Origin: Pseudomonadota bacterium
Lineage (GTDB): Bacteria; Pseudomonadota; Gammaproteobacteria; Halothiobacillales; Halothiobacillaceae
NCBI GenBank assembly: GCA_021801265.1
Contig: JAJYYE010000008.1
Span: 1-64,000, forward strand
Length of the DNA: 64,000 bases
Direction: 5' to 3'
This document shows, piece by piece, positions 1,026 to 40,064 of this stretch. The notes under the pieces were generated by a model, which ran no database searches, was not told the origin of the DNA, and saw nothing but the letters and a program-made list of their open reading frames with translations. Numbering within the stretch: position 1 is the first letter of the stretch; every line of letters begins with the position of its first letter. A program made the translations under genes and the position numbers.

Positions 1026-1674
1026 TACCCCATATCATTTTATGTAGTTGCATTTGCATGCGTAGGCGCAGCCCCGTTCCGAGCACCCATTCGGCGAGCA
1101 TCAGCGGAGTTACCATGCCAAAGACCGGCGAGACCAACACGTTAAAGCGTCGATCAAGTTGGTGATGCTGCACCTGCGCTTCGGCCCACTGGAAGTCTTC
1201 TGTGCTGCCCACGACAAATTTAATCTCATCTGAGGCTTTTAAGTGGTCCAAATTTTCGAGTAAATTTCTCCCAGACTCACCGGAGCTGGGGGTCTTTAAA
1301 TCCATCACAATGCGAACGCGCGGATCTACACCGGCAATATCTATTGCACCGCTGGTCTCCAAACTGACCGCGTAACCTGCATCGCATAGTGCTTTTAATA
1401 ATGAAAGGCATGCGGGCTGGGCCAACGGCTCCCCCCCGGTGACACATACGTCTTTGGTTTGATGCGCTTGAACTTGCATCATTATTTCGTTGATCGCCAT
1501 GCGCTGACCGCCCGTGAACGCATAAGCCGTATCACAATAAACGCAACGCAAGGGACACCCCGTTAGCCGGACAAAAACGGTAGGCCAGCCCACGCTATCG
1601 GACTCACCTTGAAGTGAGCGGAATATTTCCGTGATCCGTAATTGCGGATGTTCTTTTAACTCTATGGCACTCAT
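1009..1674 (-). CDS. queE: 7-carboxy-7-deazaguanine synthase QueE (radical SAM)
   Basis: QueE is the radical SAM enzyme that contracts 6-carboxytetrahydropterin to 7-carboxy-7-deazaguanine. The 221-residue protein shows the CxxxCxxC iron-sulfur motif as C40, C44, C47 ([10 protein letters not shown]), the FRSLQGE substrate loop near residue 20, and the CVTGGEPL glycine-rich SAM motif. Its start overlaps the cpoB stop by 4 bp (ATGA type). QueD and QueF are not in the window. Confidence 0.95.
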
Positions 1675-4080: not shown

Positions 4081-5157
4081 TCAAGGCTTCGCCTGAAACG
4101 TAAAGTTAATGCTCGACTGAAACAAACTCATATCCGAGGGTAGCGGTAAGGGCGAAGCCCGTTCGATGGCCTGTTGTACCGAGCGTTGAAACAACTGATC
4201 GCCATCGCATTGCAACACTTTAACATTGATTACTGTGCCATCAGAAGCTTGGGAAATTCGCACATTACATTGCCATTGTGGCTCCCAGCCCGGTGGCTTA
4301 TACCATTGCGCTTGAACTTTATTTTTAATCGCTGCGGCATAGGCATCCATCACGCCCTTGGATTGACTTTGCCGAAGTTCATTTTGCAATTGATTTTGCA
4401 GCGCAGACTCTTGTGATTGTCGCGCTTTGACGGCAGCCGCTTTTGCTGCCTTGTCAGCGGCTTCTTTTGCTGATTTTTCCCGAGTGGCTTCCTTCGCCGC
4501 TACCGCTGCGGCCTCTTTGGCCGCCTGGGCCTGAGCGGCCTTATCTGCAGCGGCTTTTTCTGCCGATGCTTTCTCGGCAGCTTGTTTGCTCACCTGGGCA
4601 GCCTTTGCCGCAGCCTGCTTGGCCGCTGCTGCCGCTGATTTTTCTTTTGCCACCTCTGCTTGAGCGGCTTGTTTTTGGGCATCCGCCTGCGCCGTTTCTT
4701 GCTGGATTTTCTCTAATGCTTTTTGCTGAGCATCCAGTGTTTTCTGCGCTTGCTTTTGGGCTTCCTGCGCGGCCTTGAGTTGCTGTTCTTGGGCGGCGGT
4801 TGCTTGCTGCTTTGCTTCGCGCATCGCTTCCAATTGTTGCAAGCGAGCTTGTTCGGCACGGCGAGCGGCGGCGGCTTGTTCTGCGGCAGCCTGGGCTTTT
4901 TCTGCCTCGGATTTTTGTTGCTTTAAGGTCTGATCACGTTGCACATCAGCACTTTTCAGGCGATTCAACTGCTGGTCGATCGCCGATTGGGGCACGGATT
5001 GCGCCTGAATGGTTTGCTCAGTGGGCGTGTTGGATGCCTCAGAGGCCGGAGAAAACGCATTCATTTTGAAGGAAATAAATATCGCCAAAATAATCAACAG
5101 ATGGAGCGCAATTGCCAGCAAAATAGACAGTGGCATGCGGGTAAACCAACGGAACAT
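4081..5157 (-). CDS. tolA: Tol-Pal system protein TolA
   Basis: Inner-membrane TolA spans the periplasm and transmits proton-motive force from TolQR to the outer membrane. The 358-residue protein has one N-terminal membrane segment (about 10-30, LSILLAIALHLLIILAIFI), a long Ala/Lys/Gln-rich helical domain (about 60-260) and a compact C-terminal domain with the TolA/TonB-like fold (YAAAIKNKVQAQWYKPPG to the end). It sits 2 bp after tolR. The helical domain is shorter than in E. coli. Confidence 0.94.
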   Translation of the reverse strand: MFRWFTRMPLSILLAIALHLLIILAIFISFKMNAFSPASEASNTPTEQTIQAQSVPQSAIDQQLNRLKSADVQRDQTLKQQKSEAEKAQAAAEQAAAARRAEQARLQQLEAMREAKQQATAAQEQQLKAAQEAQKQAQKTLDAQQKALEKIQQETAQADAQKQAAQAEVAKEKSAAAAAKQAAAKAAQVSKQAAEKASAEKAAADKAAQAQAAKEAAAVAAKEATREKSAKEAADKAAKAAAVKARQSQESALQNQLQNELRQSQSKGVMDAYAAAIKNKVQAQWYKPPGWEPQWQCNVRISQASDGTVINVKVLQCDGDQLFQRSVQQAIERASPLPLPSDMSLFQSSINFTFQAKP

Positions 5158-5159
5158 GA

Positions 5160-5615
5160 TTATTTACCCCCGCCCGATTTGAGTCCCGAAGTACCCGGTT
5201 GATCAGTTACCAAACCGACCTTGTCTACCCCTGCACTTTGCATGGCCACCATCGCATCCATCACAAATTGATAGTTCGCTTCTTTATCCCCTTTGACCAA
5301 CACGGGAATTTTGGGATTGAGTTGCCGGGAAGCCAAGACATACGCCTGAATTTCATGAATCGATACCGTACCCGAGGGGGCCGCTTTGCCCGATACGGAA
5401 TATTCGCCCATTTTACTCACGGCCACCACAATGGGCAGATCATCACTGGGTGCTAACGCCTTCGATGCCGCACTGGGCGGCGTGACTTCCACACCTTGCT
5501 GTAACATGGGCGCAGTCACCATAAAAATCACCAGCAGCACCAACATCACGTCGATGTAGGGCACCACGTTGATTTCGGCAACCACTTTTCGGCTGCGCCG
5601 CACGCGACGATCCAT
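5160..5615 (-). CDS. tolR: Tol-Pal system protein TolR
   Basis: TolR is the small partner of TolQ in the proton-driven motor. Of 151 residues, one membrane helix near 20-40 carries the conserved aspartate in NVVPYIDVMLVLLVIFMVT, with a periplasmic domain after it. Family: ExbD/TolR. It sits 3 bp after tolQ and 2 bp before tolA, clearly one transcription unit. Confidence 0.95.
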   Translation of the reverse strand: MDRRVRRSRKVVAEINVVPYIDVMLVLLVIFMVTAPMLQQGVEVTPPSAASKALAPSDDLPIVVAVSKMGEYSVSGKAAPSGTVSIHEIQAYVLASRQLNPKIPVLVKGDKEANYQFVMDAMVAMQSAGVDKVGLVTDQPGTSGLKSGGGK

Positions 5616-9727: not shown

Positions 9728-9890
9728 GCAGCCTGCCGGACTTAACGCAGTCCTACTGCAGAAAAGTCGGATTTGGTCATACGTTCCCCGCTTTTTCGTT
9801 AAATGGAACAACCATTCGCCTCAAAAGCGTGAAAAATCCACCTCAAACCGGACTTTTCTTCGTGACGGAGGGTTAAGCCCGACAGGCTGC
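9728..9890. mobile_element. MITE-like palindromic element, copy 1 (163 bp)
   Basis: A non-coding element with terminal inverted repeats: left GCAGCCTGCCGGACTTAAC (from 9728), right the complement of GTTAAGCCCGACAGGCTGC (ending 9890). A second inverted pair lies inside (AAAAGTCGGATTTG against CAAACCGGACTTTT). The whole element matches 13551-13702 in reverse orientation, with about 80 percent identity by eye and one internal gap of roughly 10 bp. No transposase is encoded. It lies between the MFS stop and the yebC start and could act as a terminator or promoter carrier. No clear target duplication is seen at this copy. Confidence 0.8.
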
Positions 9891-13434: not shown

Positions 13435-13459
13435 TTGACGTGTCACCGCATCACGTCAA
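13435..13459. repeat. Inverted repeat upstream of the cobalamin riboswitch
   Basis: A perfect 8-bp inverted repeat, TTGACGTG (13435-13442) and CACGTCAA (13452-13459), separated by 9 bp, about 20 bp upstream of the first conserved riboswitch base. The left arm also reads as a possible -35 box (TTGACG), with a poor -10 (AAAATG, 13458-13463) 17 bp further. It may be an operator at the btuB promoter or chance; no regulator is identifiable. Confidence 0.4.
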
Positions 13460-13477
13460 AATGCGCGGCTTGTATTT

Positions 13478-13789
13478 AAGGTGTCCGCCCCGATCACACC
13501 GTGAACAGCGGCGGATGAAACTGGGAAACAGGTACGGATCAGCGCGACCAGCAATCTCTCGGATTTGACCATCTGTCACGAGGAAAAGTCCGGTTTGAGG
13601 CGGATTTTTCACTCTTTTGAGGCGAATAGTTATTCTATTTAACAAAAAAGAGGGGGAATATGGCTTTGCCGCAATAGGACTGCGTTCAGTCCGACGGATT
13701 GCCAGGCGCGACCAAAACCTGTGCTGCCCCCGCAACGGTAGGCGCTGCCCGAATAATTTCGGCCGCGCGAGCCCGGAGACCGGCCTTGA
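13478..13789 (+). promoter_or_regulatory. Cobalamin riboswitch, interrupted by a MITE
   Basis: The 5' half (13478-13550) has the GGTGTCCGCC / GGCGGATGAAAC stem and the conserved GGGAAACAGGT. The 3' half (13703-13789) has CCTGTGCTGCCCCCGCAAC (B12 box), GGTAGGCG and CGAGCCCGGAGACCGGCC. Joined together they give a normal class-I adenosylcobalamin aptamer, with ACAGG pairing CCTGT. Between them sits the 152-bp element at 13551-13702, flanked by near-identical CAGCGCGACCA (13540-13550) and CAGGCGCGACCA (13703-13714). The gene controlled is btuB. A GTGTGC/GCACAC hairpin follows at about 13805-13821. Whether the switch still works is unknown. Confidence 0.88.
13551..13702. mobile_element. MITE-like palindromic element, copy 2 (152 bp), inside the B12 riboswitch
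   Basis: The termini are GCAATCTCTCGGATTTGACC (from 13551) and, at the right end, the complement of GCAATCCGTCGGACT (ending 13702). The body aligns end to end with the reverse complement of 9728-9890, including GTCACGA.GAAAAGTCCGGT and TTTTGAGGCGAAT. An 11-12 bp near-direct repeat flanks it and reads as a target-site duplication. It carries no gene. The terminal repeats would let the RNA fold into one long hairpin on top of the aptamer stem it interrupts. Confidence 0.82.
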
Positions 13790-13842
13790 ATGTTTTCCAC
13801 ATCAGTGTGCGGTGGGCACACTTAAGATCGTGAGTGATTACT

Positions 13843-15705
13843 ATGTCCATGCCCCGTACAACTGGCCGCCATTCGTTGACACTGGCCTGTTTATCCGCTT
13901 TTTCCCTGACCACACCCATCGCCGTCTTATCCATTTCGGCCTTACCGCTCTCTGCATGGGCCGATGAAGCAGCAACTCTGCCCGATGTGAACATCACCGC
14001 CAGTCATGGCGCACCTGTGGCGTTTGCGGGCGTGCCCGAAACGGTGATTACCCGTGCTGAGATTGATCGACTGCAGGCCACCTCGGTTTTATCCTTACTG
14101 GAAAATCGGGCGGGTTTGAATTTAGTCAACTCTGGCGGTGCAGGCAAACTCACCACCGCCTCGATTTGGGGCATGAGTGGGGGACAAACATTAGTGTTAG
14201 TCGATGGCGTGCGCATTGGCTCGCTCACCGCGGGCGCGGCCTATCTTGAAAACTTGCCTGTCGCACTGATTGAACGCATTGAAATTATCCGCGGCCCACG
14301 TTCAGGTCAATACGGCGCCGATGCGATGGGCGGCGTGATTCAAATCTTTACCCGCAAGGGCAAGGAAGGCGTGCAACCTTCGTTCAGCGTAGGCGGTGGC
14401 AGCAATAAAACCTTTGAAACTTCAGCTAATTTGAGTGGCGGTTCGGGCCCCTTGGATTATTCGATCGGCGCATCGCATCAAGGTACCGGCGGCTTTAACG
14501 CCTTTACCGATAAAACCGGCTCACCGTATGCGGTCAATCAACCCGACGATGATGGCTACCGCAACAATTCAGCTCAAGGTCGGCTCAATTACACCGGCGA
14601 AAACGGTGCCCGCCTGGGCGCGCATTGGCTCGGTACCAATGCATTTAATGATTACGATGGATTCACTAATCAAACCCGCACCCGCCAGCAAACCTTCGGG
14701 CTAGACGGCGCGCTCATGAAAATGGGCAACTGGCAATTACGCGGTAGTGCGGGACGCAGCATTGATCGTCAAACCAATTATTTTAACGGCGCGTACAAAT
14801 CTGAATTTAATGGCCAACAAGACGCCTACAGCCTCGCTAACGACTTAAATTTCGGCCAAAGCCTGCTCACGCTCGGCGCCGATCGCTTAAACGATCAAAT
14901 TTCCAGCAGCACGAAATACACCGTCACCAATCGTCACAATAATGGTGTATTCGCGCAATATGCCACGCAAATTGCCGCCCTTTCTGTGCAAACGGCACTT
15001 CGCCACGACAGCAACAGCCAATTTGGTAGCGCCAATACGGGTTCGATCGACCTGAGCTGGCAATTGAACCCCGCGTTGTCACTCACCGGCGGCTATGGCA
15101 CCGGTTTTCATGTACCCAGCTTCAACTATTTGTATTATCCCGGTTACGCCAATCCGAATTTACAACCCGAACGTTCACACACGGCGCGCATGGGGATGAA
15201 TTGGCAAAATAACGCGGGCTGGACGTCAAGCCTCACGGGTTTTCGCACCCGCACGCAAGATTTGATCGCCTCCAGCGCGAGTACAAACTATGTCCCGTAC
15301 AACATCAATCAAGCGCAATCATTGGGTGCCGAATGGCAATTGGGTTGGCGCAATACCGATTGGGCGCTGAACAGCAGCGCGACATGGATTTCTGCGGTGG
15401 ATCGCAGCACCGGCCTGAGTATCCCCCGCCAACCCAAATGGAGCGGCCGCATCGATTTAGATCGGCAATTTGGCGTATGGAATACAGGCGTTACCTTGCG
15501 TGGTCAAACGGCCACGCATGAATCGACGGCCACGCAAATCAACGCCGGTTTTGTGACGGCGGATCTACGGATGGGGTATCAATTCGCTAAAAACTGGCAT
15601 GTGGATGCCAAACTGGTCAACTTGGCGGATAAAACCTATCAAACCGCCTATGGCTACAACCAAGCGGGGCGGACGGCGATGTTCACCTTGCGGTACGGCC
15701 TATAA
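13843..15705 (+). CDS. btuB: TonB-dependent vitamin B12 outer-membrane receptor BtuB
   Basis: A 22-stranded outer-membrane receptor that imports cobalamin with TonB energy. The sequence shows a signal peptide ending LSAWADEA, a TonB-box-like start (LPDVNITAS), the plug domain (VLSLLENRAGLN, LVDGVRIGS, IERIEIIRGPRSGQYGADAMGGVIQIFTRK) and a beta-barrel with a terminal aromatic-rich strand (AMFTLRYGL). About 620 residues, normal for BtuB. The ATG at 13843 is 8 bp after GTGAG; an in-frame GTG at 13834 is possible. The upstream cobalamin riboswitch supports the substrate. Confidence 0.93.
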   Translation: MSMPRTTGRHSLTLACLSAFSLTTPIAVLSISALPLSAWADEAATLPDVNITASHGAPVAFAGVPETVITRAEIDRLQATSVLSLLENRAGLNLVNSGGAGKLTTASIWGMSGGQTLVLVDGVRIGSLTAGAAYLENLPVALIERIEIIRGPRSGQYGADAMGGVIQIFTRKGKEGVQPSFSVGGGSNKTFETSANLSGGSGPLDYSIGASHQGTGGFNAFTDKTGSPYAVNQPDDDGYRNNSAQGRLNYTGENGARLGAHWLGTNAFNDYDGFTNQTRTRQQTFGLDGALMKMGNWQLRGSAGRSIDRQTNYFNGAYKSEFNGQQDAYSLANDLNFGQSLLTLGADRLNDQISSSTKYTVTNRHNNGVFAQYATQIAALSVQTALRHDSNSQFGSANTGSIDLSWQLNPALSLTGGYGTGFHVPSFNYLYYPGYANPNLQPERSHTARMGMNWQNNAGWTSSLTGFRTRTQDLIASSASTNYVPYNINQAQSLGAEWQLGWRNTDWALNSSATWISAVDRSTGLSIPRQPKWSGRIDLDRQFGVWNTGVTLRGQTATHESTATQINAGFVTADLRMGYQFAKNWHVDAKLVNLADKTYQTAYGYNQAGRTAMFTLRYGL

Positions 15706-15710
15706 TCTAG

Positions 15711-15746
15711 GCCGCCTGTCGGATTGCGTTAAGTCCGACAGGCGGC
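15711..15746. repeat. REP-like hairpin related to MITE ends
   Basis: A perfect 13-bp stem, GCCGCCTGTCGGA (15711-15723) and TCCGACAGGCGGC (15734-15746), with a 10-base loop, 5 bp after the btuB stop. The core GCGTTAAGTCCG.CAGGC also occurs in the ends of the elements at 9728-9890 and 13551-13702, so this looks like a solo palindrome of the same family. It could protect the btuB mRNA 3' end. Confidence 0.7.
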
Positions 15747-39734: not shown

Positions 39735-39767
39735 CTAACGGGGGGATCGTGCAGAATGGAGGCTGCC

Positions 39768-39853
39768 CGACTTCCCTCCGCCGGTGCAAGCCGGATCAGG
39801 TTCCAAGGGACTCTCTCAGCCACGCGACGAAAAATCGTAGGCGGCACCCCCAG
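39768..39853 (-). promoter_or_regulatory. TPP (thiamine pyrophosphate) riboswitch
   Basis: Minus strand, 5' to 3': GGGGGTGCCGCC, GGCTGAGAGAGTCCCTT, GGAACCTGATCCGG, CACCGGCGGAGGGAAG. These are the conserved THI-box elements in order (CTGAGA, ACCTGATC, GCGGAGGGAA). It ends about 55 bp before thiC, which it controls. Confidence 0.95.
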
Positions 39854-40064
39854 TCGATAGGCGTGACCGTAGCGCAGGCAGCTCAAAAAGTCCATTGTTT
39901 ACACAACCGCTCACGCAAGGGCCTGCACAATGAAACTCGACAAATCCGCATGGTCATTGCACCCGGCATTCGGTATATTTACACACATTGTATGCGGCAG
40001 AGGGCACACAGGCCCGTGACATCCCGCCGCCGCCCCTTCATTTTTAACAGGATTGTCCCCCAAC

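Follow-up and report, generated by a model that had tools for sequence, protein, structure and literature searches.

Excerpts of Barrick and Breaker (2007, PMC2258182) describe the loop of P4 in cobalamin riboswitches as a T-loop composed of two G-C pairs, a U-A pair, a GNR sequence and two bulged nucleotides, in which the GNR is sometimes interrupted at a specific position by a base-paired helix. Extra stem-loops of this kind are known at fixed sites in riboswitches, and their origin is not addressed in those excerpts. According to extracts of PMC10907184, the L4 T-loop docks with L6, organizing the junction, and a kissing loop between L5 and L13 hides the ribosome site. In the pneumococcal trp operon a BOX element lies between two T-box riboswitches, and regulation was judged from RNA-seq to be kept (PMC3049150, in the part available), while a review of bacterial MITEs states that such elements might conceivably form riboswitches or terminators (PMC10969869). 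The portion of the review at hand names pneumococcal repeats and no insertion inside a metabolite aptamer. No report of a mobile element inside a metabolite aptamer was found in the open-licence literature searched, and the BOX element, as presented in the available part of its paper, is the closest published case found there.

The locus described here lies in a 64,000-nucleotide stretch of DNA (the window), where the leader of a btuB-like gene contains a class-I cobalamin riboswitch in two halves with a 152-bp palindrome between them. It has the core and the interruption point of the RF00174 riboswitches with the optional P4 T-loop helix, and likewise a stable stem-loop inserted outside the core; the arm differs from the helices in the excerpts of PMC2258182 in being a dispersed mobile repeat that is absent from congeners. 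As with pneumococcal BOX, a bacterial MITE-like repeat is built into a riboswitch leader, but BOX sits between two complete aptamers, whereas the element in the window interrupts a single aptamer, within a loop of the core domain. The element resembles the bacterial MITEs of the reviewed portion of PMC10969869 (short, non-coding, with terminal inverted repeats (TIRs), many copies and a stable RNA structure). There is also a likeness to the short REP and REP-like palindromes (PMC3733652), and a riboswitch in gammaproteobacterium G283 carries such repeats (see below); the window element differs in its length of ~150-165 bp and its paired TIRs, in a genome where no match to PF01797 was found. We consider it probable that a MITE-like repeat has inserted in L4 of the btuB cobalamin riboswitch and has been tolerated, with B12 control kept.

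A cobalamin riboswitch in two halves

The core motifs GGGAAACAGGT (13523-13533), CCTGTGCTGCCCCCGCAAC (13718-13736) and GGAGACCGGCC (13775-13785) are all found in the leader (Table 1), and their spaced pattern has a single occurrence in the window, while none of 100 shuffled sequences contains it. With a profile HMM built from the riboswitches of nine congeners, window excluded, the intact leader gives two separate collinear matches. Without the element and one of its flanking repeats, the halves join into a single full riboswitch match of 111.1 bits, and removal of 13551-13702 only also gives one match (109.8 bits). On the intact DNA, Rfam RF00174 reports 41.6 bits (cut-off 31.5) over 13603-13802, a match whose 5' half is built from letters of the element, so that its boundary is wrong. 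Both here and in the nrdA leader discussed below, one half of the split riboswitch is placed wrongly by standard covariance searches.

Table 1. Features of the btuB-like locus, with positions in the window
Feature	Position	Strand	Remarks
Candidate promoter TTGACG-16-CAAAAT, 5' of the leader	13435-13462	+	Consensus scan; 1 found vs 0.8 expected by chance
5' half of cobalamin riboswitch	13460-13538	+	Profile positions 2-71; 29.6 bits, E 1.6e-8
P1, 5' strand	13474-13482	+	Partner strand 13783-13791; helix predicted at 0.69-0.82 in the intact leader
P2 hairpin (TCCGCC...GGCGGA)	13484-13515	+	Predicted probability 0.96-0.98
P4, 5' strand (ACAGG)	13528-13532	+	Pairs with 13718-13722
Left flanking direct repeat CAGCGCGACCA	13540-13550	+	Abuts the element
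MITE-like palindromic element, TIRs GCAATCTCTCGGATTT / CAGTCCGACGGATTGC	13551-13702	+	152 bp; dispersed family
Right flanking direct repeat CAGGCGCGACCA	13703-13714	+	Abuts the element
3' half of riboswitch (rest of P4, P5/L5, P6, B12 box, P13)	13713-13823	+	Profile positions 68-174; 72.3 bits, E 1.3e-21
P4, 3' strand (CCTGT)	13718-13722	+	Preceded by T-loop nucleotide A13715 and bulge A13716-A13717
P5/L5 (GCTGCCCCCGC)	13723-13733	+	Invariant in genus alignment; 2-bp P5 has probability 0 in the fold
P13/L13 expression-platform hairpin GTGTG-CGGTGGG-CACAC	13805-13821	+	Stem pairs in all genus rows
btuB-like TonB-dependent receptor gene	13834-15705	+	623 aa, uninterrupted; Pfam Plug, TonB_dep_Rec_b-barrel

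The element is located in L4, the T-loop capping P4. Set against the T-loop pattern GG-U-NN-[helix]-RA-NN-CC, the window reads GG-U-AC-[178 nt, 13536-13713]-A-A-AA-CC, and by inspection its P4 T-loop comprises five pairs, U13533, A13715 and the bulge A13716-A13717, with A13534 at the G of the GNR, a deviation that counts against a tolerated insertion. Two congeners have ordinary L4 hairpins at the same place (GCAU-GUUA-AUGC in G005 and GCGUGC-GUUCAU-GCACGC in G007). The sequence-only reading had proposed a class-I cobalamin aptamer split by a palindrome within the loop of the ACAGG/CCTGT hairpin, between near-identical repeats. Its motifs and coordinates agree with ours, the split is borne out by the two collinear matches, the repeats CAGCGCGACCA and CAGGCGCGACCA do adjoin the element, and the insertion point is refined to the T-loop L4, apical on P4. 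Two of the checks that it suggested also came out in its favour, in that the halves rejoin without the element (by profile HMM, not Infernal) and the site is free of the element in related leaders.

The same btuB riboswitch is contiguous in all nine congeners (65.6-82.9 bits, one per genome), and the element is absent from it in 9 of 9. The genus alignment has 96 columns that are invariant in the congeners; 10 of these fall outside the stretch aligned for the window, and 81 of the 86 comparable columns are unchanged in it. Two of the five changed columns form the outer pair of P4, swapped from G-C to A-U in the window, and in P1 one column gives a two-sided U-A and another a U-G. The fifth is directly below P13, at a base that can still form A-U. 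P4 pairs in every row of the alignment. Taking P1, P2, P4 and P13 together, 95.6% of cells are paired and 13 of 24 pairs have two-sided changes, with 0 of 500 shuffles as high.

An alternative that we regard as unlikely, but give some weight, is that the insertion disabled the riboswitch, so that btuB lost B12 control (locked on or off) and the core is an undecayed remnant. No core position has decayed, however, and the five differing columns pair or can pair. If the insertion is recent, the conserved positions may simply not yet have decayed. The pairing-preserving changes show, at the level of the alignment, a maintained riboswitch lineage and not function after the insertion, since they go back to the divergence of the species and need not postdate the insertion.

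The expression platform is, judged by its letters, intact. In the genus alignment P13 has both-sided changes in 4 of 5 pairs and a nearly constant loop; L13 reads CGGTGGG and L5 contains CCGC, and the P13 loop is predicted to be able to pair with L5. The protein encoded downstream is 65-86% identical to the congener proteins, and GTG 13834 or ATG 13843 may serve as the start codon. An arrangement similar to the candidate promoter (TTGAC...AAT-like) is also visible upstream in the six congeners examined that far.

The inserted palindrome and its family

The 2.66-Mb genome to which the window belongs has 18 matches to the element, 17 of them elsewhere, with 69-89% identity apart from the self match. 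Among the congeners, 8 matches are found in G003 and none at the same threshold in the other eight. Most full copies measure 151-165 nt from TIR to TIR, and the ends of the family consensus, GCAGCCTGTCGGACTT ... AAGTCCGACAGGCTGC, are in most cases followed by CTAG/CCAG-like letters. Shorter palindromes that share these ends are also present. At up to 3 mismatches, the TIR pattern matches the genome 38 times forward and 33 times in reverse (10 and 15 for the reversed-pattern control). The idea that the palindrome is an old integral part of the riboswitch lineage rather than a mobile insertion could draw on the existence of long natural L4 arms, but is contradicted by the 17 further matches and by the nine congeners that lack the element at btuB; we hold it to be very improbable.

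Two other members of the family were observed in the window. A second full-size copy lies between two genes on the minus strand (9737-9885), and a 36-nt palindrome with the element's ends (15711-15746) begins 6 nt past the btuB stop codon, so that btuB has a member of this repeat family on either side.

Relative to the family consensus, the btuB copy deviates at 22 of 147 sites, of which 7 are private, and it therefore need not be very young, which speaks against a loss of control concealed by lack of time. Its two flanking repeats differ by one inserted base only, which fits a young insertion, a point for a riboswitch that has been disabled. These repeats are atypical of the family. The flank-repeat score is 9 for the btuB copy and at best 6 for the 31 other copies (one of which, L080, is badly delimited), and 0 of 992 pairs of left and right flanks taken from different copies score as high as btuB's (maximum 7). 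A long target-site duplication was rejected as a family trait, as the flanks of the other copies score like mismatched pairs (32 copies including btuB's); a clear flanking repeat of 9-12 nt is found at btuB only, and a duplication of 4 bp (CTAG/CCAG) may have occurred. The case for a long target-site duplication is accordingly uncertain, and the btuB flanks fit equally a long duplication made once or a pre-existing tandem repeat in the loop combined with a CCAG duplication.

The family thus described is short and non-coding, with many dispersed copies and terminal inverted repeats, as is typical of MITEs. The earlier designation as a MITE stands with regard to size, TIRs and copy number, and is less secure with regard to the target duplication, which is indistinct, and to the transposase, for which the search was limited to Y1_Tnp. 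That search (PF01797, the only family covered) gave 0 matches in the genome, in contrast to what a REP/RAYT system would have; a cognate enzyme may be lost or present in another strain. An autonomous parent element was also looked for and the idea dropped, as paired TIR ends occur only at short spacing (by eye) and the Y1 transposase is absent.

As RNA the element is predicted to fold with -51.9 kcal/mol (z -3.9; none of 200 shuffles reaches this value). This strong structure, together with a weak terminator-like hairpin inside the element (13583-13610), could suggest that the element adds its own control by partial termination or an internal start, and that btuB answers a signal other than B12 whether or not the aptamer works. 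Promoter- and terminator-like sites occur at chance frequency (1 found of each, against 0.8 and 0.9 expected), however, and the consensus scan found no promoter-like sites inside the element; we judge such an added control improbable.

Consequences for the riboswitch

The mechanism that would follow from a tolerated insertion begins with a palindromic mobile repeat landing in L4, the apical T-loop of P4, and leaving the core whole. Being self-complementary, the RNA of the repeat would fold on itself into a closed arm above P4, leaving the four-way junction undisturbed. The RNA would then still bind cobalamin, dock L13 on L5 and repress translation of btuB, with the repeat now serving as a peripheral helix of the riboswitch. 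The sequence-only reading had already put forward that the palindromic RNA may extend the hairpin and leave the B12 fold intact, and the predicted ensemble of the intact leader is in keeping with this: P4 (0.77-0.83) and P13 (0.83) are retained along with P1 and P2, and the 2-bp P5 is given no probability (Table 1). We take B12 control of btuB to be likely retained. When the letters of the element were shuffled, the mean probability of P4 fell to 0.25, with 7 of 60 shuffles at 0.8 or more, suggesting that the palindrome disturbs P4 less than an ordinary sequence of its composition. The folding gives no sign that the element helps P4, since two of the three element-free versions, in which both flanking repeats were kept, fold P4 better (0.91-0.99) than the intact leader; P4 was 0.02 in the version that also lacked one flanking repeat.

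These predictions refer to secondary structure only. The docking of the L4 T-loop with L6, described in extracts of PMC10907184, could be blocked by the 178 nt, and this would favour a disabled riboswitch.

Other L4 inserts and the origin of variable helices

A scan of 84,980 genomes, one per species, for the core with 126-186 nt in L4 returned 27 stretches, of which four were left after inspection (L092, L098, L103 and L115). In 22 of the 27 a GGGAA...GGT lies nearer, and the match further upstream is most plausibly due to chance; L095, which has a nearer GGGAA, was set aside as a matter of judgement. Within the class, 3 of 369 genomes have a gap of 61-121 nt in L4. The L4 arms of L092, L098 and L103 are long, and that of L092 is single-copy in its genome.

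The arm of L115, from a Zoogloeaceae MAG, is a 105-nt palindrome (2807-2911) that its genome contains at 24 places (29 matches, less five that read listed copies backwards). It is unrelated to the element in the window, and the downstream gene encodes the large subunit of ribonucleotide reductase (nrdA). In a relative (L168, 82% identical in its nrdA DNA) the same riboswitch lacks the repeat and bears a short arm of its own, and Rfam again draws the 5' half of L115 inside the repeat. With an unrelated repeat in the same loop in another lineage, L4 appears to be a tolerant landing site for self-folding mobile DNA. The predicted folding of the nrdA leader does not support a tolerated insertion, as P4 has a probability of 0.01 with the repeat and 0.48-0.56 without it, and 9 of 60 shuffles do equally well or better; a fold that does not favour P4 is a point for the btuB riboswitch, too, having been disabled by its insert. 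Against such a loss, Rfam-level riboswitches with L4 inserts of 61-147 nt exist elsewhere (L098, L103, L119, L120 and L121), and one long insert is common to two Phyllobacterium species. L121, from G283 (1286-1636, minus strand), has REP-like repeats both in L4 and in a second variable loop before the B12 box, with 12 and 5 other matches in the genome, mostly partial (20-56 nt), and the riboswitch with its two repeats reaches 75.1 bits with Rfam.

The finding of a mobile repeat at the exact site of the optional helix, of relatives without the element and of a second, unrelated case makes the origin of variable helices testable with reporters, and suggests that RNA sensors can incorporate mobile DNA. 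More tentatively, and with rather low confidence, we propose that the variable helices of riboswitches have repeatedly originated from mobile palindromic repeats, with L4 as a landing site where a ready-made arm is then kept by selection. In the btuB copy two neighbouring TIR positions are changed on both strands (GCAGCC/GGCTGC to GCAATC/GATTGC). A count by hand, in which one copy with an indel was left out, finds pairing preserved at 4 of the 6 deviating positions of the btuB copy against 25 of 81 in 29 other copies, and two-sided changes account for 2 of 6 against 3 of 81. These compensated changes, small in number, hint that the arm is under selection as RNA; they could also have arisen by template switching across the palindrome or been inherited from the source copy.

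Several further arrangements were noted around cobalamin riboswitches. A Pseudomonas lini leader (L093, ~5130-5300) has two GGGAA...GGT cores upstream of a single L5, at distances of 140 and 5 nt, which may reflect partial duplication of the riboswitch or a match by chance. The btuB riboswitch of G022, from another genus (L043, 3342-3564, minus strand), carries in L4 a GC-rich hairpin of 25 nt that is peculiar to it among the members of that genus examined; the resemblance of the flank CAGGCGCGACC to this hairpin is taken as coincidence. A palindrome whose ends resemble those of the element (GGAGCCTATCGGACTTGAG ... CTCAAGTTCGATAGGCTCC) directly precedes the btuB riboswitch of G011, a genome from a different genus in the family (L046, ~1060-1230). 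Elsewhere in the window, the minus strand carries a TPP riboswitch at 39756-39861 (Rfam RF00059, 65.9 bits).
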